64,000 bases of DNA from Polystyrenella longa (GTDB lineage: Bacteria > Planctomycetota > Planctomycetia > Planctomycetales > Planctomycetaceae), in assembly GCF_007750395.1 (NCBI RefSeq), contig NZ_CP036281.1, positions 2,007,001 through 2,071,000 on the forward strand, given 5' to 3'. Each line of letters opens with the position of its first letter. Position 1 is the first letter of the stretch. The translations under genes were made by a program, and so were the position numbers. The notes beneath the pieces are model-generated. The model ran no database searches. It was not told the origin of the DNA and saw nothing but the letters and a program-made list of their open reading frames with translations. Below, one piece after another: positions 1-49,857 of the stretch.

Positions 1-2232
1 GGCGTGGAAGAAGCCGATTTTCTGACCGCCCTGAAAACGATACGAGGAGGACAGACCGTGACCGACCAAAATCCCGAAGACAAATACCAGGCTCTTGAGC
101 GCTATTCGAAAGACCTGATCGAGCTCGCCCGTGCTGGTAAGATTGATCCCGTCATCGGGCGAGATGCCGAGATTCGGCGGGTCATTCAGGTTCTCTCGCG
201 ACGTCGTAAAAACAACCCGGTTCTGATTGGGGAACCAGGCGTGGGGAAAACGGCAATTGTGGAAGGGCTTGCCCATCGAATTGTCAAAGGGGACGTTCCA
301 CAGAACCTCAAGAATAAGGGGGTTTACGCTCTCGACATGGGGGCTCTCATCGCCGGAGCGAAATACCGGGGAGAATTTGAAGACCGGTTGAAAGCGGTTC
401 TTAAAGAAGTGACCGACGCGGAAGGGCAGATCATTTTGTTTATCGACGAACTGCATACTGTCGTCGGCGCAGGGGCTTCGGAAGGCTCTATGGATGCCTC
501 CAACCTTCTCAAGCCAGCGCTCGCCCGTGGTGAATTACACTGCGTCGGTGCAACCACCTTAGATGAATACCGTAAGTACATTGAGAAAGATGCCGCCCTG
601 GAGCGTCGGTTCCAACCAGTTCTCGTACAGGAACCTAATGTCGAAGATACGATCTCCATTCTGCGTGGTCTGAAAGAACGATATGAAACTCACCATGGTG
701 TGCGAATCACAGATGATGCGTTGATTTCGGCGGCTTCGTTATCGGACCGATACATCGCCGATCGATTTCTTCCGGACAAAGCGATTGACCTGATCGACGA
801 AGCAGCGAGTAAACTCCGTATGGAGATCGACTCGATGCCCGTCGAAATCGATGAAGCCACTCGTCAGCTTACCAGAATGCAGATTGAAGCTGCGGCGCTT
901 GATCGTGAGACGAGCGAGGACAGCAAACAGCGACTCGATGACCTGAAGCGTCAGATTGCGGATCGCGAAGAAGAAGTCAATCAGCTGAAAGCCCGATGGG
1001 AGAACGAGAAGGAAGCACTATCGGGGCTGCAACCACTCAAAGAAGAAATCGAGCAGCTACGCTCTCAGTACGAAAATGCTTTCTCTCGCGCACAGAAAAC
1101 GAACAGCAACGACGATTACGCATTGGCGTATCAGTCTCAAGTGAAGCTGGAAGCGGCGGAAAAACGATTGGCCGAGTTGGAGCTGAAGTTTCAGGAAATC
1201 GCGAGTAACGATGAAGATCGATTGCTGCGGGAAGAAGTGACTTCGGAAGATATCGCCCGGGTCATCAGTACCTGGACGGGAATTCCTGTGTCACGCATGT
1301 TGCAATCGGAGCGTGAGAAACTGGTCCATATGGAAGATCAGATTCACCAGAGAATGATCAATCAGAACGAAGCAGTCGAGGCGGTCTCCAATGCGATTCG
1401 ACGCTCTCGGGCAGGCTTACAGGATGAAAATCGTCCGATTGGTTCGTTTATCTTCCTTGGTCCGACCGGGGTGGGTAAGACAGAACTGTGCAAAGCACTC
1501 GCCGAATTTCTATTCGATGACGAACGGAGCATGGTACGGATCGACATGAGTGAGTTCATGGAGAAACATTCAGTGTCCCGATTAATCGGCGCGCCTCCGG
1601 GGTATGTTGGTTATGAAGAGGGGGGAGTGCTCACCGAAGCGGTCCGCCGACAACCTTACTGCGTCATTCTGTTAGATGAAATCGAAAAAGCACACCGGGA
1701 TGTGTTCAACGTACTGCTGCAACTTCTTGATGATGGTCGATTGACGGATGGCCAGGGTCGAACTGTTGATTTTACCAACACGCTCGTCGTGATGACGTCG
1801 AACATTGGAAGCCAGTTCCTGATCGAACTGTCCGGCAAGGAGCACGAGCTGGAAATCAAGGAACGGGTGCTGGATGCCTTACGGGCGCACTTCCTACCGG
1901 AATTCCTTAACCGGGTGGACGAGACGATCGTTTTCCATCCTCTTCAGAGCGATGCGATCAAACAGATTGTGGGACTGCAGCTGGACCGGCTGAAAAAGCA
2001 GGTTGAGAAAAACGGCTACGAATTGGAAGTGACAGAGGCCGCTCGGCAGTTACTGGCCCAGGAGGGCTTCGATCCCGTTTACGGAGCTCGACCAGTGAAA
2101 CGGGTCATTCAGCAGCGTATTCAGAATGCACTGGCGAATGAAATTCTGTCCGGTCGTTTTGAAGAGGGGAGTACCATTCTGGTGGATGCCAGTCAGGATG
2201 GATTCATCTTCGATACCAAATTGCCTGAATAA
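1..2232 (+). CDS. clpB: ATP-dependent disaggregase ClpB, 5' end outside window
   Basis: This is the C-terminal 743 residues of the Hsp100 chaperone ClpB, a cytoplasmic hexameric ATPase that pulls apart protein aggregates together with DnaK. The frame is open from base 1, and roughly 110-130 residues (most of the N-domain) lie upstream, judging from the usual length near 860. Visible parts are the first AAA+ module with Walker A GEPGVGKT (bases 229-252) and Walker B ILFIDELH, a long charged coiled-coil middle domain (about bases 840-1240), and the second AAA+ module with GPTGVGKTE near base 1460 followed by [11 protein letters not shown]. The middle domain separates ClpB from ClpA and ClpC. 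The C-terminal small domain is complete and ends at TAA 2230-2232. No clear terminator follows. Confidence 0.97.
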
Positions 2233-2506
2233 GTTTTCAGTTATTCAGTTGATAAAGAAATTCCAAACTGAGGCAGACAATTAGACATCTAAAGACTGCG
2301 GTGGTCTTATTATTTGATACAAATCCATGAACTAAATTCCGGGAAAGCCTGTTCAGACCAGCAGTTGTCGCGAAAACAAGATGGTCGAGTCCAGTAAAGA
2401 GTTGTTGTTTTCTCACTGCGCGAGCGATAAGATGGCAACTTATCACATCCAAATTAGTTCCAATATATTCCCGTTATTCCCCTCTTGATATCAATGTGAG
2501 TGTTTC

Positions 2507-3601
2507 ATGTTTCGCATTGGGTATATCCACAATTTTCGTACGGACTTGGCGTTCTTTCTGCTTCTTCCATTTCTGGCGATTGGTTTTTCTCTTCTAGCCC
2601 AGAATTATTTGAGTGCCGTAGCGCTTTTATCCGTCAGCGTCTGGATCACCTATCCTCACCACGCCGCGACTTTTGTGCGGACGTTTGGTTTGAAGGAGGA
2701 TATGGCCCAATATCGAGAAAGGCTAATTGTCGGTCCAATTGTAATCATCAGCCTCGCTTGGGTTGGTTTGAATTACGCACCAATAACCTATCTGGCCCTC
2801 ATTCAATTTTGGGCATATCAGCATAGCATTATGCAGCAGCATGGTTTCGCTCGGATTTACGACTTCAAAGCGCGAACGGGTATGGCAACTACTGGAAAAT
2901 GGGATCTCTGCCTCAACTGGGTTCTATTTGTAAATCTATTGATTACAGCGCCTCTCTTTACTAACTTCTGGGTACGGGAGATGTACGTCTACAATTGGCG
3001 AATTACGGCCGAACAGGTGACAATGGTTCAGAATGTTTCCTGGTCACTGACTGGCGTTTATGTTTTCCTGTATGCGATTCATTTGGTAACGGTTCTCCGC
3101 ACAGGACATGCTCTGAATCCATTGAAGTACTGTTTCCTCGGATCGAGCTACTTCCTCTGGTATTTCGTCGCATGGCAAATCGATAATGTATTCGTATTCG
3201 GTATTGCCGATCGTATCATGCACGGAGTTCAGTACATGGTGATTGTCTATCTGTATATGGATCGCAAAGTTCAGGATTCAGAAACCGAAGAAACCTACAT
3301 CAAACGGTTCCTCTCAGCTGGGCATATTAGTGCCTACCTTGGGTTACTTCTGGTCTATACGCTCCTATACCAGATCGTTCGCGACAAGCCATTTTCTGAA
3401 TTCAACTTTGGGCTCAACTTAATGATCTTTATGGAGCCTTACATGCAATCAATTCCGGAGGCGGGTTTGGGAGAGTTGAGCGAGAAAAACGCGTTGTCCT
3501 TTGTCTTCTTTATGGCGGTCGAAACCGTGGCTACGATCCACTATTACTACGATTCTTTCATCTGGAAAGTCAGTAATAAGAAGACTCAAAAAGGGCTGTA
3601 G
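2507..3601 (+). CDS. Uncharacterised polytopic membrane protein with conserved-looking histidines
   Basis: The 364-residue protein has about eight hydrophobic stretches and I do not recognise its family with certainty. Histidines sit at or next to membrane segments: H51-H52 (YPHHAATFVRTF), H106 and H112 (WAYQHSIMQQHGF), H192, H239 (MHGVQYMVIVYLYMDRK) and H345 with D349 (IHYYYDSFIWK). Such spacing recalls integral-membrane metal enzymes (Brp/Blh-type carotene oxygenases, membrane di-iron hydroxylases), so a metal-dependent lipid or isoprenoid enzyme is possible, but this is inference from the histidine pattern only. The start ATG 2507 is preceded by a weak GTGAG; an overlapping ATG at 2500 is in another frame. 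The next gene starts 3 bases after the stop, so the two are very probably co-transcribed. Confidence 0.85.
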   Translation: MFRIGYIHNFRTDLAFFLLLPFLAIGFSLLAQNYLSAVALLSVSVWITYPHHAATFVRTFGLKEDMAQYRERLIVGPIVIISLAWVGLNYAPITYLALIQFWAYQHSIMQQHGFARIYDFKARTGMATTGKWDLCLNWVLFVNLLITAPLFTNFWVREMYVYNWRITAEQVTMVQNVSWSLTGVYVFLYAIHLVTVLRTGHALNPLKYCFLGSSYFLWYFVAWQIDNVFVFGIADRIMHGVQYMVIVYLYMDRKVQDSETEETYIKRFLSAGHISAYLGLLLVYTLLYQIVRDKPFSEFNFGLNLMIFMEPYMQSIPEAGLGELSEKNALSFVFFMAVETVATIHYYYDSFIWKVSNKKTQKGL

Positions 3602-3604
3602 GCA

Positions 3605-4153
3605 ATGGGAGAACAAAAGGGAAATCTGATCAAATCAATCTTCGTTCGTTACAAACTTCTGTTTATTGTTTATGGCGTGGGACTCCTTTTTGCTACTTGG
3701 GAGTACTATGGTGTTCCGGATGAAAGCCATGAAATGATGCAGCAGGAAGACTACCTTAAACATTTGTTGCAACATGTGGATGAAGATGATTCATTCTACG
3801 GTTTCCAGATTAAAAAATTCGAAGGACGCCCCGAATCAGAGTACTTAAAAGGAATGCGTGAGTTTCGTAGATATGAATTGGCTATGCGGAAAGTCAAATC
3901 TCTTAAGGACAAAGGGAAGGGGAAAGAAGCAACCGCAATAGCGAAGGGTGCTCGCAGCCACTTAGAGGAAGCGCGGAGGCACTTCGAGATTCCCTTGCAA
4001 GCAGGAGTAATCAGCAATGAGAATCTAATGGTATTTCATTGTATTACATTGAAGCTATTGAACGCGCCAGAAGAGGAGTATCAGGTAGCCATTGTCCGCT
4101 TGCAAAAAAACTTCCCTCTAATGGAACTTCCACCATTTCTTCGAGAGCAATAG
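3605..4153 (+). CDS. Small membrane-anchored protein of unknown function
   Basis: The 182-residue product has one N-terminal hydrophobic segment (about residues 15-33, LLFIVYGVGLLFATWEYYGV) and a charged, mostly helical remainder rich in Lys and Glu. The topology suggests a single-pass anchor with a soluble domain on one face of the membrane. I do not recognise a family. ATG 3605 lies 3 bases after the stop of the histidine-rich membrane protein, so it is probably translated from the same message and may be an accessory subunit of that protein. A strong hairpin terminator lies about 75 bases downstream. Confidence 0.8.
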   Translation: MGEQKGNLIKSIFVRYKLLFIVYGVGLLFATWEYYGVPDESHEMMQQEDYLKHLLQHVDEDDSFYGFQIKKFEGRPESEYLKGMREFRRYELAMRKVKSLKDKGKGKEATAIAKGARSHLEEARRHFEIPLQAGVISNENLMVFHCITLKLLNAPEEEYQVAIVRLQKNFPLMELPPFLREQ

Positions 4154-4226
4154 GGTATGCGGACAGCGACTTTGGAATAGTGCAGTGCGTGGACAATAAG
4201 CACGAATGAATTTGCCAATCGACTAA

Positions 4227-4266
4227 ATAAAAAAGCGACCGGGAAATCTCCCGGTCGCTTTTTTTG
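4227..4266. terminator. Bidirectional intrinsic terminator
   Basis: An 11-bp perfect stem (4234-4244 with 4249-4259, AGCGACCGGGA/TCCCGGTCGCT) with a 4-base loop is flanked by an A-run on the left and seven T on the right. It lies between converging genes (membrane protein pair on plus, 58-aa basic protein on minus) and can serve both. Confidence 0.88.
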
Positions 4267-4360
4267 TTTTTGAGGTGCTCGCTGACATTCATTTATTGCC
4301 ATCACGATGTCACCAGTGCTGTTGAGCGGTCCAGAGGTTGAACTTCGGACTTGACTACGC

Positions 4361-4537
4361 TCAGTCAGCCGTTTTTTCGCCGAGGACGACGAACTGGCTA
4401 ACTCGACCTGCTTTTTCCTGCAAAGCCTGTTTTTCAGCGTCAGTTTTAGCGCCTGCGAATTTTTTGCGGAGCTTGGCAATTTTGGCGCGGCGGGTACGAC
4501 GTCGGGCAATTTCTCGGCTGCGTTCAATGCGTCCCAT
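4361..4537 (-). CDS. 58-aa basic protein, resembles planctomycete DUF6800
   Basis: A short gene reading M-GRIERSREIARRRTRRAKI and ending GEKTAD before TGA. The 58-residue product is strongly basic in its N-terminal half (six Arg between residues 13 and 20) and turns acidic and helical afterwards. From memory it resembles the small planctomycete proteins grouped as DUF6800, of unknown function; the basic helix suggests nucleic-acid or ribosome binding, which is inference. The start is supported by a purine-rich GGGAGAAG about 6 bases upstream on the minus strand. The opposite strand has an overlapping open frame (4338-4559), but the family-like protein and ribosome site favour the minus strand. 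The gene is convergent with the membrane-protein pair and shares its terminator. Confidence 0.8.
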   Translation of the reverse strand: MGRIERSREIARRRTRRAKIAKLRKKFAGAKTDAEKQALQEKAGRVSQFVVLGEKTAD

Positions 4538-4851
4538 GTGGAACTTCTCCCTTTCCTGAAGGTGTTTTACTTCAATACTGTTTCAAATGTGTTGATATAT
4601 TAGTTCGACATACTTGGAAGGTCCTGCAGATTTCTATTTCCAGAGGACGCCAGTCTGAATCGCACACTCTACGTTGCACGCCCTGAGTCGCATAGAGGGC
4701 TTAATAGCACATAGAGGCGGCATCAGGCCAAGGTACTTAAGTCGATCCATTCTTGTTGTCTAATTTAAGAAGGCTATTTTTAAGCGATTTGTCGACCATT
4801 TTCCAGTCCTGTTGCTATTTGGACCACTCAGAAATGTTCAGGAGGGGTGGA
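4538..4851. other. Intergenic region without a supported gene
   Basis: About 310 bases between the start of the 58-aa gene and the stop of the large fusion gene, both on the minus strand. The part next to 4538-4620 is AT-rich and probably holds the promoter of the small gene, but I could not fix -35/-10 boxes. No hairpin terminator was evident. Confidence 0.5.
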
Positions 4852-7800
4852 TTAGGCCGTAACTCGGCTGTAATGATCGATCGCTAATTGCTTCAGGGAC
4901 CGTAAATCGAGCTTTCCCGTCCCTAAAATGGGGATTTGGTCGACTTCCAGAAAACTATCCCGGCTGGGAAGCCACAGGTTGGGAATATCGCAGTTTCCGA
5001 GCGATTTCAGGACCTCATCGGTCGGTTTGTTCAGCTTTCGGTGCACCACGATGATGCGTTCGCCCTTACTTTCGTCTGGAATCGACGTCACGGCCAGAAC
5101 GATTTCCTCTTCTTCGTCATCGGGGGATTCCACGATATTCGTGAGCAGTTGCTCAATTTTGATGTGAGGAACCATTTCGCCCGCGATTTTGGAGAATCGG
5201 CTTTGCCGACCCGTGATCTCAATAAAGCCATCCTGGTGAATTCGTGCGAAGTCGCCTGTTTCGTACCAGCCGTCCCGAATGACTTCGGCCGTCTTTTCAG
5301 GCTGATTCAAATAGCCTTTCATGACATTTGGCCCTTTGACGAGCAATAACCCTTCCTGTTCGGCGTCCAGATCCTCCCGGGTTTCGGGGTGGACGACTTT
5401 TACGCTGATGTTCGGTGCGGCCCGTCCGACAGTGCCGATCTTCGTACCAACTTCGGATGTCAACTTGCTGCGATGGTCAGGGACGTTACAGCTGACTAGC
5501 GGTGACAGCTCGGTCGTTCCGTAACCTTCCGTCGCTAGTACACCGAATTTCTCGTAGAACTCGGTTTGCAATTCTACAGGCAGCTTCTCCGCCCCAGTGA
5601 CAACAGTATCGAGTCGGCAGAATTGCTCCTTAGTGCATCGTTTGAGGTACCGTTTCAGGAAGGTCGGCGTGGTGATGATCACAGACACGCCGTACTTTTC
5701 GCACAGTTTCCCGATCATATTTACGTCGATCGGGTTGAAGTGATAGACCGCCTGTGGTTCCGAAGCAATCACCAACCACAAGGTTGCCATATACCCAAAC
5801 GAATGAAAGTAGGGGAGTACCCCCAGAAGAACGTCGTTTTTGTCAAAGTGCAGCAGTTGAATGGCGGCATCGACGTTAGTGGCGATGTTGTAGTTGGTCA
5901 GCATCACTCCTTTCGGATTCCCTGTGGAGCCCGAAGTGAAAATGACGGTCAAAATGTCGTCCGGTTCAATCTTATGCAATCCATGAATCCGTTCCAGCAG
6001 AAAAATGGGAACAAGATATGTCTGAAAAAAAGTAATAGCTTTGTCGGCGAGAGAGATTTCCTCTTTCAAATCTTCAAGGAAGATTAGCTCCACATTCATT
6101 TCTATCGGTCGTTTTTCAAGGAAACGGCGGCTCGTCAGGACGTGCTTGATACCACAATCCTCGATGCAGTGATTGACATCCTTCTCGGAAAGGGTGTAGT
6201 TCAAATTCACCGCGACATTATGTTTCATGGTGAGGGCGGTGTTGGTCACAGCCGCTGCGACTGAGGGTGGCAGCAGAACGCCAACCATGTTTTCAGTCAT
6301 GCCGATATTCTTGCGGCGGAATAACCGCTTGAAAATGAGCGAGCCAATAAGCAGTTTTGCGCCCGTGGCTTCGTTCCCGGAGTAGTCTGCGACTTTGCGC
6401 CGGAACAGGCTGGATCGGCACTGCCGGAGAAATGCCCTGATGGGGACCATAATGCGTGATTTACGTTCTTCCATAAGTTCAACTCCCAGGTCCTGAACGG
6501 CCTGACGGATTTGGTGGACGCTATCCGGTTTTTCAATCGGTTTGCCGAATTTTATCGAGAGGGGGTAGCGAATTCGCAATGGTAGTTTCCACAGGAATCG
6601 TCCACCGCGATAACTGAAAATGCTTCCCCATAATTCGTCGAGATAGACGGGGACAACAGGGGCGTCCGTCCCTTTCAAGATGTGCATGACGCCACCTTGA
6701 AATTGCTGTAATTGACCCGTGCGAGTCAACTGGCCTTCGGCGAAGATGCAAACGAGTTCGCCTTGTTCTATCGCCTGCCGGGCCTGTTGCAGCGATGTTA
6801 TTAACGCCTTGGGGCCCGCTTCCGGTTTGATGGGAATGACACCGAATAACTTGGCAACCCATTTAATCCAAGGTTTGTTTACATAATCTTCATACGCGAT
6901 CATACGTATCGGCCGCGATGATGTCACCATCAAAAAGACACCGTCCAGCCACGTTACATGGTTGGCGACCAGCAGGGCACCGCCGCGTTCGGGAAGATTT
7001 CCACGTCCCCAGACACGCACCTTATAAATCGTATGTGTCACCAGCCAGACCGCAAACCGGATTGTTGCGTTAGGAAGTAGCACAAAGATGTAGATCGCGA
7101 CGGGCATGGTCGCTATCCCGAGCAGCAGAAAAATGGTACTCGGTTCCAACTTCAACTGTTCGCGTAAAACCCAGAAGAGCCCGGAAGCGAACAACGTCAA
7201 AGTGAAACAGAGAAAGTTGGCTGCAGCGAGGATTCTTCCCCGGCTTTTATCTGGACTGCGGTGCTGAATGTACGATTCCAGAGGAATATTAAATAGCCCC
7301 GCCGCAAGACCGAGAACGAGTAAACAGAGGCAAGACCAACGGTAGGCATAGCTGGTTGAAAGAGCATTGGAAGGGTCGACTAGGGCACCGATGGAGTACA
7401 AAACGATGGAACTGAAGACAATTCCAAGAGCTCCCAAGGGGGAGATTCCCAGCTCAACATGGTCTCCAGACCAGTAGCCCGCCAATACACTTCCGACTCC
7501 TACGCCAATAACCAGCAATGCAAGCAGGGGGCCGACCGCCGTCTGGTCCAACTGTAATTGGATCGTCCCGTAAGCATCGATATTCAATTGAGCGAGCGCC
7601 GCGAGGAACCAGAAAAAGGCACTGCCCAAGGCGGCCCGGAAAAGTGCCTTCGATTTAAAGAGCTGGTTTAGACTCTGGTAGGTATCTTTGACTGGGTTAT
7701 TGGGGAGCACCCGTTCCGGGTCGGCCGGGGGCAGTTTGCTAATGAATAGACTGCTGATTAGTCCCAGCCCCGCCATTGTGAATAGAACGAGGGCCGCAGG

Positions 7801-13792: not shown

Positions 13793-14005
13793 TTAAGTGC
13801 GGTTCGATTTCGGTTCGGGAAAGTCGAGGCTGACGACTGACTCATTCGGTTTAGCAGAGCTGCAGCCACTGCAGCTGGTTCCGCATGCGGAGCCTCCGCC
13901 TCCGGACCGGATTTGTCTGAATAGTTTCTTCGCTTTCAAACCGAGATAGCCTGCGCCTCCAATTACGATCAGGATCGCGATGATCATTTGCCAGAACTGA
14001 TTCAT
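13793..14005 (-). CDS. FeoB-associated Cys-rich membrane protein
   Basis: The 70-residue protein has one N-terminal membrane helix (MIIAILIVIGGAGYLGLKA), a basic stretch, a Gly run and a Cys cluster (CGTSCSGCSS). This arrangement matches the small proteins (FeoB_associated family) encoded next to feoB in many bacteria. It lies 40 bases downstream of feoB on the same strand, so co-transcription is likely. Its role in ferrous iron uptake is unproven; the cysteines could bind iron or act as a redox relay on the cytoplasmic side. Confidence 0.88.
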   Translation of the reverse strand: MNQFWQMIIAILIVIGGAGYLGLKAKKLFRQIRSGGGGSACGTSCSGCSSAKPNESVVSLDFPEPKSNRT

Positions 14006-14045: not shown

Positions 14046-16277
14046 TCAGGCGACGAATAACATTCCCACCTGATAGACTACAAATGCAGCGATGTAGGCA
14101 AGAATAGTCATGTAGCTGAAACTGAAAGCGGCCCATTTCCAACTGTTTGTTTCTCGGCGAATCACCATCAATGTCGAAACACACTGGGCACACAACGCAA
14201 AGAAGACCATGATCGACAGGGCGACAGGAACGTTAAAGACCTTCGTTCCATCCGGCCATTTGGATTCGTGTAGTGCATCCCGTAAGCCATCATCTTCTTC
14301 ATCGACTTCACCACCCAGGCTGTAAATGGTCCCCATGGTCGCGATGATGACCTCGCGGGCCGGAAAGGAAGCGACGACGCCGACTCCGATTTTCCAGTCC
14401 CAACCGAGCGGTTTCACGACTGGTTCGATGACATGGCCTGCTTGGCCGAGGAAGCTGGTTTCGATTAAGGTCGCACTTAGATGCTTGTTTCTCGCCTCAA
14501 GAGTGGCGATGCGATCGGCATCGGCTTCTTCATCCAGAGTTTCGAGTTCGGTTTCAATGGCGTGCTGTTCAGTGTGGTCGCCCGGGAAATATCCGGCGGC
14601 CCAGATAACGAGCGTCGCGGCGAAAATCAACGTGCCCGCTCGGACAACGAATGCTTTCGCACGATCATAAACACGGAAGGAGACGTTGCGAATCGAAGGC
14701 CATTTGTAATCGGGAAGTTCCATTACGAAGGGGGGAGCTTCGCCTTTGAATGCGGTCTTTTTCAACAGGAAGGCAACAGGAATGGCGACAACTGCCCCAA
14801 CCAGGTGCATCAGAAAAATAACGAGTGCAGGCAGAGTAAAGTCCCAGTACCCACCTTCGGCGAGTACAGGCATTGGAATCTGAAACAGAACAACCGAAGG
14901 TACGAAGGTCATCGTGAGCAGCCAATAGACCGGGAATCGGGCGGTACAACTCATCAGGGGGGCGATCAGCATGGTAACAATACGGTCACGCTGATTCTCG
15001 ACGACCCGTGCTGCCATAATTCCTGGAATGGCGCAGGCAAACGAGGACATGAGCGGCAGAAATGATTTGCCACTCAAGCCGAACAGACGCATAAAACGGT
15101 CCATCATTAGCGCAGCGCGCGCCATGTAACCGGTGTCTTCCATGATGGAGATGAACAGAAACAGGAAGACGATCTGCGGCAGGAAAATCAAAACTCCCCC
15201 CACACCGGCGATGACTCCATCGACCAGAAGGCTGCGAAGAGGTCCCGGTCCAATACCGGCCTCGACCCAGCCTGCTGCCGTTTCCTGTCCGTATTCGCAC
15301 CAGCCCATCACCGGTTCTGCCCAGGTAATGATTGTCTGAATGATGAGGAACATCAGGGCGAAAAAGACGACCAAGCCAAGAATGTTGTGGGTGAGGACCC
15401 GGTCGATATGGTCAGAAGCAGAGCGGGGTTTGACATCTTCATCGACGACGAAGAGCCCGGCCATGATCGATTTTGCCCACTGATAACGACATTCGGACTC
15501 GATCCTCGGAACAGTACAGTTTTGTTCTTTCAAGTTTTCACGAATACCAGTTAGAAACTGGGCGAACTCCGGCCCCGTTTTTTTCAAGCATCTTTTCTCG
15601 ACGGACCCATCTTTGTCCAGAATGAGTCGTTCGACCTCGTAATCTTCGAATATATCGACGCCAGACTCTGTAAGCCGTTGGCGAACTTTTTCCATCGCCT
15701 CGTTGAACGGGGCAGGGAAGACATTCAGTCGTTTGGGTTTCGGTTTCGCTTTGAGGAGTTCGGCAAGAGCCTGTTTGATTTCTTTCGTGCCCGTTCCTTT
15801 ACGAGCGACAGCAGGAATGACGGGAATCCCCAGTCGAGACTGGAGTTCCGCCAAGTTGAATTCCTCGCTTCGTTTTTTCAGCGAGTCCCACATGTTCAAG
15901 ACGAGGATCGCAGGAATACCCATGTCCAGAATCTGGCTGACCAGATAGAGGTTTCGTTCCAGATTGGTGGCATCCGCAATACAGATGACGGCATCTATCT
16001 CACCAATAGAAGGGGCATGGCCCATCAAAACATCGACGGAGACCATTTCGTCGGGAGTACGCGGAGAGAGGCTGTAGGTTCCGGGCAGGTCGATCAGATC
16101 GATTTGCTGACCTTCCCAGGTGACGCGTCCGATTTTCTTTTCAACCGTCACACCGGGGTAGTTGCCCGTGCGGGTGTTCATTCCGGCAAGAATATTAAAC
16201 AGAGTGCTTTTGCCGGTATTCGGGTTACCAATGAGGGCGACTTGACTGGTGCGCGTGGCGGGAGGAGTGGTAGTCAT
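14046..16277 (-). CDS. feoB: Ferrous iron transport protein B
   Basis: The 743-residue inner-membrane Fe(II) importer has an N-terminal G-protein domain with G1 GNPNTGKST (residues 17-25), the G2 loop with YPGVTVE, G3 DLPGTYSLSP and G4 LNMWD (NxxD), followed by a helical regulatory domain. The membrane part from about residue 290 contains two Gate repeats and the typical MARAALMMDRFM and SFACAIPGIMAAR motifs. The length is normal for the family. It is the second gene of feoA-feoB-Cys-rich protein on the minus strand, 171 bases after feoA. Iron regulation through the palindrome at 16817-16831 is likely. Confidence 0.97.
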   Translation of the reverse strand: MTTTPPATRTSQVALIGNPNTGKSTLFNILAGMNTRTGNYPGVTVEKKIGRVTWEGQQIDLIDLPGTYSLSPRTPDEMVSVDVLMGHAPSIGEIDAVICIADATNLERNLYLVSQILDMGIPAILVLNMWDSLKKRSEEFNLAELQSRLGIPVIPAVARKGTGTKEIKQALAELLKAKPKPKRLNVFPAPFNEAMEKVRQRLTESGVDIFEDYEVERLILDKDGSVEKRCLKKTGPEFAQFLTGIRENLKEQNCTVPRIESECRYQWAKSIMAGLFVVDEDVKPRSASDHIDRVLTHNILGLVVFFALMFLIIQTIITWAEPVMGWCEYGQETAAGWVEAGIGPGPLRSLLVDGVIAGVGGVLIFLPQIVFLFLFISIMEDTGYMARAALMMDRFMRLFGLSGKSFLPLMSSFACAIPGIMAARVVENQRDRIVTMLIAPLMSCTARFPVYWLLTMTFVPSVVLFQIPMPVLAEGGYWDFTLPALVIFLMHLVGAVVAIPVAFLLKKTAFKGEAPPFVMELPDYKWPSIRNVSFRVYDRAKAFVVRAGTLIFAATLVIWAAGYFPGDHTEQHAIETELETLDEEADADRIATLEARNKHLSATLIETSFLGQAGHVIEPVVKPLGWDWKIGVGVVASFPAREVIIATMGTIYSLGGEVDEEDDGLRDALHESKWPDGTKVFNVPVALSIMVFFALCAQCVSTLMVIRRETNSWKWAAFSFSYMTILAYIAAFVVYQVGMLFVA

Positions 16278-16448
16278 AAAAGAAGGCTGGCTCCAGTGAG
16301 AGCGGATGGAATGCTGGAACTCCGGCTGAGGCTGTTCGCGCGGAGGAATGTACCAGATGGTCTCACTGCTGGCAGGTTATTGGAGGGTAAAAAATTCGGT
16401 CTGAACAGGATGATTTCAGATCGTGTGTAACTTCAACTTTGAGGTGGA

Positions 16449-16685
16449 TCAGTTCACGAGTTCGACTTCAATACGGCTTGATTCTTCCGGTCGCAGGGCG
16501 AGGCGGAAACCTCGAGTCAGGTAAGTCGCAGGCTGTCCGAATGGGGCGCTACCGACGTATTCCACTACTTCTCCCGCAATCAGCCCCATTTCCATCAACC
16601 GAATGGAAATACCATCATCGCCGTCGACTCGAGAGATGCGCCCCCGTTTTCCTTTGGCGAGCTGGTTGAGTTTCAGTAGATTCAT
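16449..16685 (-). CDS. feoA: Ferrous iron transport protein A
   Basis: The small cytoplasmic SH3-like protein assists FeoB. The 78-residue reading starts MNLLKLNQLAKGKRGRI and includes the typical R-x-M-E-M-G-L turn (ISIRLMEMGLIAGE) and the terminal hydrophobic strand ending IEVELVN. ATG 16685 is chosen because its length fits the family (75-85) and AGGA lies about 10 bases upstream. In-frame ATG 16742 (97 aa) and ATG 16832 (127 aa) have no convincing ribosome site, and the longest frame would run over the operator-like palindrome. First gene of the feo operon. Confidence 0.88.
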   Translation of the reverse strand: MNLLKLNQLAKGKRGRISRVDGDDGISIRLMEMGLIAGEVVEYVGSAPFGQPATYLTRGFRLALRPEESSRIEVELVN

Positions 16686-16816
16686 AATCAATTCATCCTG
16701 GCATGGGCCGAAGTCTGATGGAGACAAGTCTGTTAGCGTCATCAAGTTGGAAAACGCGATCCGGGTTTCATCGAAGGACCTTCCTAATTCTAACAGGCAG
16801 CTTGGTGGAAGAGAAC

Positions 16817-16831
16817 TGAGACTCAGTCTCA
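16817..16831. promoter_or_regulatory. Fur-box-like perfect inverted repeat upstream of feoA
   Basis: The 15-base element TGAGACTCAGTCTCA is a perfect 7-1-7 inverted repeat, the geometry of the core Fur site (TGATAATnATTATCA and variants such as TGAGAATnATTCTCA). It differs from the latter at one mirrored position in each arm. It lies about 130 bases upstream of the chosen feoA start in the leader of an iron-uptake operon, which makes iron-dependent repression by a Fur-type regulator plausible. The match is by eye only. Confidence 0.6.
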
Positions 16832-16880
16832 CGCAAGTGGTTTTAAGCCAGAAAGTCAGACCCGATTTCGGTTAAGGGTA

Positions 16881-16926
16881 CAAAAAATCCCCGTCTTCAG
16901 TGCTTTTGGACTGAGGACGGGGATTT
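16881..16926 (-). terminator. Intrinsic terminator of the LRR/coiled-coil gene
   Basis: A 17-bp stem (16885-16901 with 16910-16926) with one wobble pair and an 8-base loop is followed on the minus strand by a T-run. It lies about 50 bases after the stop of the minus-strand gene at 16975 and insulates it from feoA. Confidence 0.88.
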
Positions 16927-16974
16927 GGCTGTTTAGGAGTGATGGTCGAACCTCGCAGGTAAGACTATCTCGTA

Positions 16975-18126
16975 TTAACCTGCTTTCGCAGTGAGCTCTT
17001 CCAGCGTTTTGGTTGTGGATTCGAGCTGTTTCTTCGCTTCTTCCGTTTGCACTTTCAGCTCTTCCAGCTGTTTCGCGGCGGCTTCGGCTTTCACTTTGGC
17101 TGCTTCACTCGCTGCTTTTGCAGCTTCCGTTTCAGCCAGAATCTTCTGGGCTGCTTCCTGTTTAGGAGCGGCGGCCTGTTTCTGATTTTCGGCTGATAGG
17201 CCTGTCAGGGCAGCTGCTTTGGCCGTTTCCTGTGCTTTGTGAATCGCAGCGATAGCTGCCTGGGCGGCGGCATCAGCCTGTTTCTGTGCTTCTTCGGCGG
17301 CTTTGATTGCTGCCTGTGCTGCCGCTTGAGCAGTCGCGGCTGCTTCAGCGGCGGTTTTGTTCTGAGCTTCCTTGTCCGTAGTTGCTTTAGCTGTCGCTTC
17401 TGCTTCCGCGGTGGCTGCCGTGGTGGCGGCTTGAGCTGCTTCCAGTTGTGTGGTGTTTTCAGCCAGCTTCATTTCAGCGGCTGCTTTTTCCTGCTTGGTC
17501 GCTTCGATCTTCGCCAGCAGTTGTTCCCGCTCCACGACGAGATTCGGTATGATTGCTACTTCAGGATTCGCTTCGATGAATGCTTTTACACCGTCGTAAT
17601 TGACTTCGGTTTCCCAGATGTACAGCTTCTTCAGTGAATCCAAACTGTTCAATTTAGGTAAACCGGCGTTGGTGACCTTGGTGCCGTAGACGTTCAGATA
17701 TTCCAGCGCTTTCAAGTTAGCGAGGTGATCGAGCCCGGCGTCGGTAATGCTGGTTTTTTCGAGATGCAGCTTGGAGACATTCACTAGACCAGTAATAAGA
17801 GCGAGTTGATCGTCTGTAACAGGCTTGTTTCGCAGGTTTAAATGGACAATCAGGCGTGACAGAGGAGCCAGCGCTTCTAATCGTTCGTTGGTCACGTCAC
17901 CGTCGGACAGGTGGTAGGCAACTTCCAGGTGTTTGTCTTCCTGGGACAGCTCTAAAACATGGGCGCCCAGCTCGCGTGCCTTGGCAATTGCGGCTTCTTC
18001 TTCGGGAGTGAAGGTGATTTCTTCCGCTAACAGGGCACCGGAACTCACAATAAAGATGAATAGCAGGGCGAGCAGATGAGAGCAGTGCTTCAGCGAACTG
18101 GCGTGGCGATTACGGAAAATAAGCAT
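16975..18126 (-). CDS. Secreted leucine-rich-repeat protein with Ala-rich coiled coil
   Basis: The 383-residue protein has a signal peptide (about residues 1-34, with IFIVSSGALLAEE), then about four leucine-rich repeats (LIVHLNLRNKPVTDDQL, KLHLEKTSITDAGLDHL, YLNVYGTKVTNAGLPKL, KLYIWETEVNYDGVKAF). The second half, from about residue 195, is an Ala/Lys/Glu/Gln-rich heptad-like coiled coil with no other fold. The LRR type is common in planctomycete secreted proteins, often beside cytochrome domains, which are absent here. I placed the start at ATG 18126 because it begins the signal peptide and AGGA is 11 bases upstream; the open frame extends to 18345 without further support. Role unknown; a cell-envelope spacer or binding protein is possible. 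Confidence 0.8.
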   Translation of the reverse strand: MLIFRNRHASSLKHCSHLLALLFIFIVSSGALLAEEITFTPEEEAAIAKARELGAHVLELSQEDKHLEVAYHLSDGDVTNERLEALAPLSRLIVHLNLRNKPVTDDQLALITGLVNVSKLHLEKTSITDAGLDHLANLKALEYLNVYGTKVTNAGLPKLNSLDSLKKLYIWETEVNYDGVKAFIEANPEVAIIPNLVVEREQLLAKIEATKQEKAAAEMKLAENTTQLEAAQAATTAATAEAEATAKATTDKEAQNKTAAEAAATAQAAAQAAIKAAEEAQKQADAAAQAAIAAIHKAQETAKAAALTGLSAENQKQAAAPKQEAAQKILAETEAAKAASEAAKVKAEAAAKQLEELKVQTEEAKKQLESTTKTLEELTAKAG

Positions 18127-18526
18127 AATCCGGGAGTCCTCTTGGCAACTAAAACAGGGGTGGGGGGACCGTAAGATCTTGTTTGAAAATAGGTTACGGT
18201 ATTTCTTCTGGGTGAGATCCAGGGCCGGGTGCGATCTTAACGGCTGGAATCGCCGTAATCCGCAATCCTGACCAGCTCTCCCTATATTAACACACCGATT
18301 CCGGCGTCGGAAAGATATTGGCCCCCGAAGTAGATAAAAAGTCATTGATCTGTTGAATCTGACCGGTTCAATCTGCAGAGCCGGTCCTGCCTGAAATGGT
18401 CTCGCCCTAAATTCTGTTTTTAATTATGGTTCCAGCCGCAAATGGATTTCGAATTCCGGCACGGGGTACTCCGCAGCCTGGCATTCGTGCGAAATAGATT
18501 TTCTCAGGAAGGATTCCTGTTTACTC

Positions 18527-48513: not shown

Positions 48514-49857
48514 ATGTTTAAGATTACTCTTGGAAATCGAACGAATTCGACATGCGATGGCATCTCGCGGAGACATTCTTTGCGAATGGGAGCCTGCGGT
48601 TTGATTGGAGGCCTGACTTTACCCCGGTTGTTAGAACTACAAGCCAAAGCTGCATTACCTGACGCGCCCAAAGCCAAGTCTTGTATTTTCCTTTTCCTGG
48701 AAGGTGGGCCCCCGCATCAGGACATGTGGGATCCCAAGCCTGATGCACCAGAAGAAATTCGAGGTCCTTTCAGCCCGATTCAAACCAACGTGCCCGGTAC
48801 GATCGTTACCGACCAGTTACCACTGTGTGCGAAAATCGCCGACAAATACACAATTGTTCGCAGCCATAGCCATCGCGATAACGGACACTCAACGGGCTAT
48901 CATTATGTGATGACCGGTCGGAAACCTAACTTTGCTGATGGGGATAACCCAGTACCGAACAATGATTTTTATCCGTCAATCGGCTCAGTCGTGTCGCGTG
49001 AATGCGGTCCACTTAGCTCGCTACCTGCCTACATCAATCTGCCCCACCCGATGGCCGGCGGTGGACCAGGATTTTATGGAGCCGAACACGCACCATTTGT
49101 CATCGAAGCCGATCCGACTCAACCCGACTTTGAAGTCAAAGATTTAAGGCCCGCCGAGAATTATTCTCAAAAACGTTTAAGCTTGCGAAAGAAGCTGCTG
49201 ACGGGGCTCGATCAACTAGAACGCGAACGGAACCATGGTCAGGCCAAGGTGATGTCAACTTACTATGAAAAAGCATACAGCCTGATTGCCTCTCCCGAAG
49301 CGAAAAAAGCGTTTGATATTCAATCAGAACCAGACGAAGTGCGTGACGCTTATGGTCGCACTCAAATCGGACAGTGTGCACTACTGGCCCGACGCTTAGT
49401 CGAAGGGGGAGCTCGATTCGTCGGTGTGGATGCACCAGGCTGGGACGTGCATTTCAACTGCTTCCCAAGTTTACAAAACGATTTGATCCCTTACGCAGAT
49501 CGAGCGTTTAGTACCTTGGTAACCGATCTGGAAGAACGTGGTTTGCTGGACGAGACATTGGTCATCATGATGGGAGAAATGGGCCGCACCCCTCGCGTGA
49601 ACGCTAAGGCGGGTCGCGATCACTGGTCGATGGCACAGACCATCATCTTTGCAGGTGGCGGCACCAGGCCGGGTCAGGTGATTGGGGCGACTGACAAACA
49701 AGCTGCTGCACCTATCACAGAGCCGATCGGCGTGTCTGACTTGTTGTACACCATTTCGACATTGATGGGCATCAATCCAGAGAAATCCTACCTCGGTCCA
49801 TTGGGACGACCGTTTCCCATTGTCGATGGCGGAAAAATGATACAGGGCCTGGTGTAA
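48514..49857 (+). CDS. DUF1501 family protein, twin-arginine leader
   Basis: The 447-residue protein has a twin-arginine-type leader (RRHSLRMGACGLIGGLTLPR) and the DUF1501 alkaline-phosphatase-like core: CIFLFLEGGPPHQDMWDPKP, VRSHSHRDNGHSTGYHYVMTG, FVGVDAPGWDVHFN, VIMMGEMGRTPRVN and GRDHWSMAQTIIFAGGG. The family is found very often next to DUF1549/DUF1553 proteins in Planctomycetes and its reaction is unknown. It begins 48 bases after the stop of its partner and ends immediately before the start codon of the next gene. Confidence 0.93.
   Translation: MFKITLGNRTNSTCDGISRRHSLRMGACGLIGGLTLPRLLELQAKAALPDAPKAKSCIFLFLEGGPPHQDMWDPKPDAPEEIRGPFSPIQTNVPGTIVTDQLPLCAKIADKYTIVRSHSHRDNGHSTGYHYVMTGRKPNFADGDNPVPNNDFYPSIGSVVSRECGPLSSLPAYINLPHPMAGGGPGFYGAEHAPFVIEADPTQPDFEVKDLRPAENYSQKRLSLRKKLLTGLDQLERERNHGQAKVMSTYYEKAYSLIASPEAKKAFDIQSEPDEVRDAYGRTQIGQCALLARRLVEGGARFVGVDAPGWDVHFNCFPSLQNDLIPYADRAFSTLVTDLEERGLLDETLVIMMGEMGRTPRVNAKAGRDHWSMAQTIIFAGGGTRPGQVIGATDKQAAAPITEPIGVSDLLYTISTLMGINPEKSYLGPLGRPFPIVDGGKMIQGLV

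Follow-up and report, generated by a model that had tools for sequence, protein, structure and literature searches.

The palindrome TGAGACTCAGTCTCA, located at positions 16817–16831 (no strand assigned) of the 64,000-nucleotide stretch of Polystyrenella longa DNA analyzed here (the window), is very probably an operator of this bacterium's own Fur with an ACT-S-AGT core, as suggested by its sequence and by comparative counts. In the window sequence, the site matches the described word with 0 mismatches. It is a reverse-complement palindrome whose arms, TGAGACT and AGTCTCA, are separated by one centre base (7-1-7). An earlier note on this DNA had described a perfect 7-1-7 palindrome that differs from a typical Fur box at one mirrored position and lies in the leader of an iron importer operon. 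The inverted repeat was recovered letter for letter, the difference from TGAGAATnATTCTCA amounted to two letters, and the genes downstream of the box were feoA, as identified by Pfam, and then feoB.

The feoA gene (16449–16685, minus strand) is an open reading frame for a polypeptide of 78 amino acid residues (Pfam FeoA, E 4.7e-19) and is the first gene of the operon, and its start codon is separated from the upstream box by 131 bp. The feoB gene (14046–16277, minus strand) encodes a ferrous iron importer of 743 residues with the Pfam domains FeoB_N, Gate and FeoB_C. The gene at 13793–14005 on the minus strand, encoding a FeoB-associated Cys-rich membrane protein of 70 residues (Pfam FeoB_associated, E 4.8e-6, 27.2 bits with a cut-off of 27), is probably the third gene of the feoAB operon. 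In addition, a hairpin with one internal mismatch followed by a T-run was read from the sequence at 16882–16926 on the minus strand. It was absent from the output of the terminator scan, probably owing to the internal mismatch. This element probably terminates the upstream gene at 16975–18345, and the box would therefore belong to the control region of feoAB. A consensus scan of the feoA leader of the window found no sigma-70 promoter and no clear -35 element. The sole conserved promoter-like word in this leader was a possible extended -10 element at 16787–16795 (minus strand), 21 nt downstream of the box, which is proposed from the alignment of two leaders and reads TGTTAGAAT in the window and TGTTAAAAT in the same-genus genome G096. 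G096 was the only other genome of the genus with a feoA match, and it contained an identical box while much of the surrounding leader had diverged.

A loose search of the window alone, in which up to 3 mismatches were allowed, returned 2 sites with 2.5 expected and thus showed no excess, so that the case rests on the exact match and on comparative data. The exact word with a free centre base occurred at two places in the 6.13-Mb genome and its reversed control at none. The family word TGARAYTNARTYTCA was matched 448 times in 161 of 170 genomes of the family, while the reversed control was matched 27 times. For the textbook Fur box TGAKAATNATTMTCA, 8 matches were found in 8 of the 170 genomes with 2 for its control; this word is less degenerate than TGARAYTNARTYTCA, and each count is to be compared only with its own control. 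Genomes G003 and G004 possessed Fur and no exact family word, and a version with one mismatch preceded feoA in both.

The box was also conserved upstream of feoA in relatives. Among the 137 genomes with a feoA match, 70 feoA loci were compared, comprising the 30 best matches and 40 loci added for genus breadth. The exact family word was found within 900 bp upstream of feoA in 48 of the 70 loci, and the count rose to 55 when one mismatch was allowed, with 0 of 70 for the reversed control over the same 900 bp. G073 was entered twice among the 70 loci, and the corrected figures are 47 of 69 and 54 of 69, respectively. Counted by genus, 27 of 45 genera had the exact word and 32 had it at no more than one mismatch. 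The textbook word was not found exactly at any of the 70 loci and was found with one mismatch at a single locus (L327), which is a hybrid. At 15 loci, all words in the 900 bp upstream of feoA departed from the family word by more than one mismatch. A chance palindrome was ruled out, as the genome, family-wide and feoA-upstream counts were all above those of the reversed controls. A tandem pair of feoA genes was observed in L194 and L195, with the box before the first copy, and such tandem copies may explain many of the box distances near 300 bp. In genus g10, 16 of 16 feoA leaders had a box that overlapped the -35 element of a promoter-like TTGAAA-17-TATATT/TATAAT/TATAGT sequence.

The genes faced by the box were surveyed in a census of all 76 family-word sites in the 25 matching genomes among G000–G026, in which a gene was considered to be faced when it lay within 450 bp, and Bfd and HemP were called by tblastn at E≤0.01 with short references. 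The targets included feoA/feoB (12 sites), a Bfd-like [2Fe-2S] gene (15 sites, one of which also faced a truncated globin gene), hemP (9 sites) and a ZnuA gene (1 site), so that feo, bfd or hemP genes were faced by 36 of the 76 sites and the total with ZnuA was 37. The remaining sites faced a DUF1559 (PF07596) gene only (25 sites), a TPR gene only (2 sites) or none of the listed genes (12 sites). All 12 sites without a listed target had a TGAAA or TTTCA arm. A listed target was found at 64 of the 76 sites and at all 56 of the sites whose arms were both of the TGAGA/TCTCA form, both figures being descriptive only, for a gene set that was fixed after part of the same loci had been seen. The centre base was C or G at all 56 of these strict sites. 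Pfam supported the Bfd, hemP, globin, ZnuA and FeoB examples, for which pieces of 58–153 residues were searched except for FeoB and one PepSY protein, as well as the flavodoxin and Fur genes beside boxes outside the family.

A lack of enrichment before iron genes had been named in the earlier note as a result that would refute the Fur-box reading, and the counts did not refute it. The box was found before feoA in most of the family genera read and before bfd and hemP, and elsewhere in the phylum before fur and flavodoxin genes. Comparison of the feoA leaders of related genomes, also proposed in the earlier note, gave the conservation reported above, and the Fur-box reading itself gained support both from the iron-gene targets and from the near absence of the textbook word in the same genomes.

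The genome of P. longa contains three family-word sites. Besides the one at feoAB, one precedes a TPR gene (C1:2968553) and one lies in the intergenic region that separates a hemP-like gene from a DUF1559 gene (C1:5449507). The boxed TPR gene is possibly a new member of the iron regulon. Related TPR genes were also boxed in G001 and G005, and a similar-looking open reading frame lies opposite hemP in G022 (L219).

Six genomes (~45 Mb) contained 597 DUF1559 matches, and in these genomes 14 of 30 sites were found no more than 450 bp upstream of a DUF1559 gene versus ~0.6% expected at random. No DUF1559 match was found in 14 control genomes. At L259 (G025:C1:2211000-2224000, 1857–6892), the box is followed by genes for DUF1559, an unassigned small protein, PepSY_TM, Peripla_BP_2 and FecCD, a gene row typical of siderophore or haem uptake with DUF1559 at its head. 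The box would connect some members of DUF1559, a large and uncharacterised family, with iron starvation. The open-licence PMC literature searched yielded no account that places DUF1559 in iron regulation.

In a sample of the phylum, the strict word was present in 24 of 27 genomes of the family versus 42 of 365 other genomes, while the reversed control was present in 2 of 392. Hence, the suggestion that this form is the Fur-like site preferred in the phylum holds in part: the box is also present outside the family, where its strict form is rarer. Eleven sites outside the family were read, and these preceded fur (2 sites), flavodoxin (1 site), DUF2325 (3 sites) and DUF1559-type genes (3 sites) or had no assignment (2 sites). 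In other families of the phylum, the box was located 10 bp (L243) and 96 bp (L242) before fur, and it preceded a flavodoxin gene in L241. In family f46 (G286, G330 and G414; L233–L236), the box preceded a DUF2325-type gene in 3 of 4 loci, with the Pfam assignment made for one of them. Related forms in Verrucomicrobia were mostly asymmetric: relatives such as TGCGACAGAGTCTCA were found in 7 of 15 feoA leaders, and 1 of 15 came within a single mismatch of the family word.

The Fur of this genome is a polypeptide of 164 amino acid residues encoded at G000:C1:4042662-4043153 on the minus strand. It is one of two Fur-superfamily proteins of this genome, the other being L004, and the genome also encodes one DtxR-type protein that includes a FeoA domain. 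The best candidate for the reader of the box is Fur, given the 7-1-7 geometry, the Fur-type set of targets, the boxes at fur (L242 and L243) and at flavodoxin (L241), and the persistence of the box in genomes without a close DtxR orthologue. A Fur hit at E≤0.001 was obtained in 164 of 170 genomes of the family and in 128 of 130 near-complete ones, four of the hits being weak. Comparing the presence and absence of Fur with those of the box across the 170 genomes was uninformative because both are nearly universal. Ten genomes had no clear Fur hit (best E >1e-20 or none), all of them in at least 270 contigs, and nine of these ten contained boxes, a pattern that missing contigs may explain. The fur genes of the family lacked a box within 300 bp upstream, where the best words had 4–6 mismatches in 20 of 20 loci; among the 164 genomes, these 20 gave the best matches to the Fur of this genome. 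A box at the fur gene is common, and not universal, among Fur systems.

A reading of the box by the DtxR/MntR-type metal repressor of this genome (233 residues with a C-terminal FeoA domain, C1:5917471–5918169) is improbable. This protein has the Pfam domains Fe_dep_repress, Fe_dep_repr_C and FeoA, DtxR-type proteins regulate iron genes in other bacteria, and one target of the box is a ZnuA-type transporter (L066). The presence of the box, however, does not track the DtxR-type protein. It was kept, with 95 boxes at normal density, in 36 of the 38 genomes of at least 90% completeness that lacked a close DtxR-type orthologue, as defined by a best E >1e-40, weaker DtxR-domain hits persisting in those 38 genomes. 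Moreover, the box has the 7-1-7 geometry of Fur and differs from a Fur box by two letters, and it precedes fur in L242 and L243, whereas the best words at the dtxR-like loci of four genomes (L006/L100–L103) had at least 2 mismatches. It is very improbable that the reader is another iron-responsive regulator, such as an Rrf2/IscR-type protein or the second Fur-like protein L004, which has Lys at the helix position (FDKATVFRNL). The lack of a box at the family's own fur gene would fit such a regulator, but the targets are those of the standard Fur set, and the boxed regulators of L242 and L243 share the ATVYRTL type with the main Fur. Least probable of all is that the palindrome works as RNA by forming, in the leader of feoA, a small hairpin that terminates or attenuates transcription: it appeared terminator-like in the scan, with 6 pairs and a loop of 3, but 1 such hairpin was found with 0.5 expected in shuffled sequences, no Rfam match up to E 0.1 was obtained in 16400–17000, the letters themselves are conserved across genera beyond their pairing, the box is also found in divergent arrangements, for example between hemP and DUF1559 genes, and in genus g10 a box over the -35 element would be upstream of the transcript.

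Returning to Fur as the probable reader, we compared the box with the sites of known systems. The Fur box of proteobacteria and Bacillus is a 7-1-7 repeat of the TGATAATNATTATCA or TGAGAATNATTCTCA form. Similar to that box, the site described here shares its length, 7-1-7 inverted repeat and TGA...TCA ends, and it is found before feoAB, hemP, bfd and siderophore- or haem-type uptake genes, and before fur only outside this family. Different from that box, its core is ACT-C-AGT (ACT-S-AGT in the family) instead of AAT-N-ATT, and its centre is C or G in the 56 strict sites. Because of this core and the near absence of the textbook word (8 matches versus 2 for the control), the box is classified as a variant of the Fur box rather than as the textbook box. 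The PerR box, of the TTATAATNATTATAA type, is also a 7-1-7 site of the Fur superfamily with an AAT-N-ATT core, and differs from the present box in its outer bases and core. The boxes of DtxR/IdeR and MntR are bound by metal-dependent repressors that control genes for iron or manganese uptake; they differ in sequence and are not 7-1-7 TGA...TCA palindromes. No description of the box itself or of the planctomycete Fur regulon was found in the open-licence PMC literature. If these genomes were searched for the textbook Fur box, nearly all of their boxed iron genes would be overlooked; TGAGAYTSARTCTCA finds them.

The structures of Magnetospirillum Fur with the feoAB1 operator are PDB 4RB1 and 4RB3. 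In this Fur, the minor groove is read by Lys15 and the major groove by Tyr56 and Arg57 (PMC4506495). The Fur of P. longa is a sequence relative of Magnetospirillum Fur (E ~2e-16), and in their alignment Tyr56 and Arg57 are retained as Tyr69 and Arg70. Lys15, in contrast, is replaced by Arg30, and residue 52 in Magnetospirillum numbering, where the recognition helix starts, is Arg65. By alignment, Arg at the helix start was found in the Fur of all 20 family loci and in all 8 best hits from Verrucomicrobia. Seven further planctomycete genomes included five with a close Fur, all with Arg, and two with weak paralogue hits only (L280 and L281). The Fur proteins of L242 and L243 had Lys at this position, while three gammaproteobacterial Fur proteins (L277, L278 and L284) had Leu or Ile; in gammaproteobacterial feoA leaders, a box one letter from TGAGAATNATTCTCA was found in 2 of 9 (L155 and L163). 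The best Fur hit of G544 (L279) was a Zur-like paralogue. Arg or Lys at position 65 was also present in the paralogues L280, L281, L282, L283 (Zur-like), L285, L287, L288, L290, L292, L293 and L004, and this residue is therefore not specific to readers of the box. The co-variation of core and residue 52 among true Fur proteins, seen in a small sample, is only a lead, and Arg65 possibly partners the new G-C pair of the core. The PerR-like gene of L286 (Verrucomicrobia), with Leu at the helix position, has a palindrome similar to the PerR box, TTAGAATCATTCTAA, ~100 bp upstream; the same genome encodes, in L272, a Fur paralogue whose helix differs.

Repression by occlusion that depends on iron is the expected mode of action. 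With ample ferrous iron, metal-bound Fur would occupy the box at the feoAB promoter and block transcription, and under iron shortage Fur would be released and feoAB expressed. The lineage form of the Fur site would be TGAGAYTSARTCTCA, in which the usual AAT-N-ATT core is changed to ACT-S-AGT. Bound Fur would cover the -35 region in genus g10 and, if TGTTAGAAT is the -10 element, would sit just upstream of the -35 region at feoA of the window. Binding by Fur, repression and the role of Arg65 are what we infer from these comparisons. A joint scenario, plausible but falling somewhat short of probable, is that Arg or Lys in the first turn of the helix rewired the Fur code early in the Planctomycetes–Verrucomicrobia line from AAT-N-ATT to ACT-S-AGT, separating Fur from the PerR-type paralogue of the same cell, and that the regulon gained the pseudopilin-like DUF1559 proteins. 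If so, these proteins would take part in acquiring iron by way of siderophores or haem, which would hint at the function of part of a family that is very large in planctomycetes. The changed core, combined with the changed Fur helix, would allow the evolution of Fur specificity to be tested directly at a single residue.

Finally, the window contains a second Fur-like word, CGAGAATTATTCTCA (49155–49169), which is one letter off the textbook Fur box. It lies within an open reading frame of 447 residues (48514–49857), presumably DUF1501-like, and is unlikely to be an operator and probably due to chance. At another site of the genome, C1:942150 (TGAGATTTATTCTCA), the locus L246 contained no family word. 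Beside L225 and L230, one gene per site was scanned over its N-terminal 75 residues, and no Pfam hit was obtained; in these two loci, from G025 and G026 of one genus, TGAGATTCAGTTTCA lies between apparently the same pair of divergent, unassigned genes, one member of which appears helix-turn-helix-like by eye.
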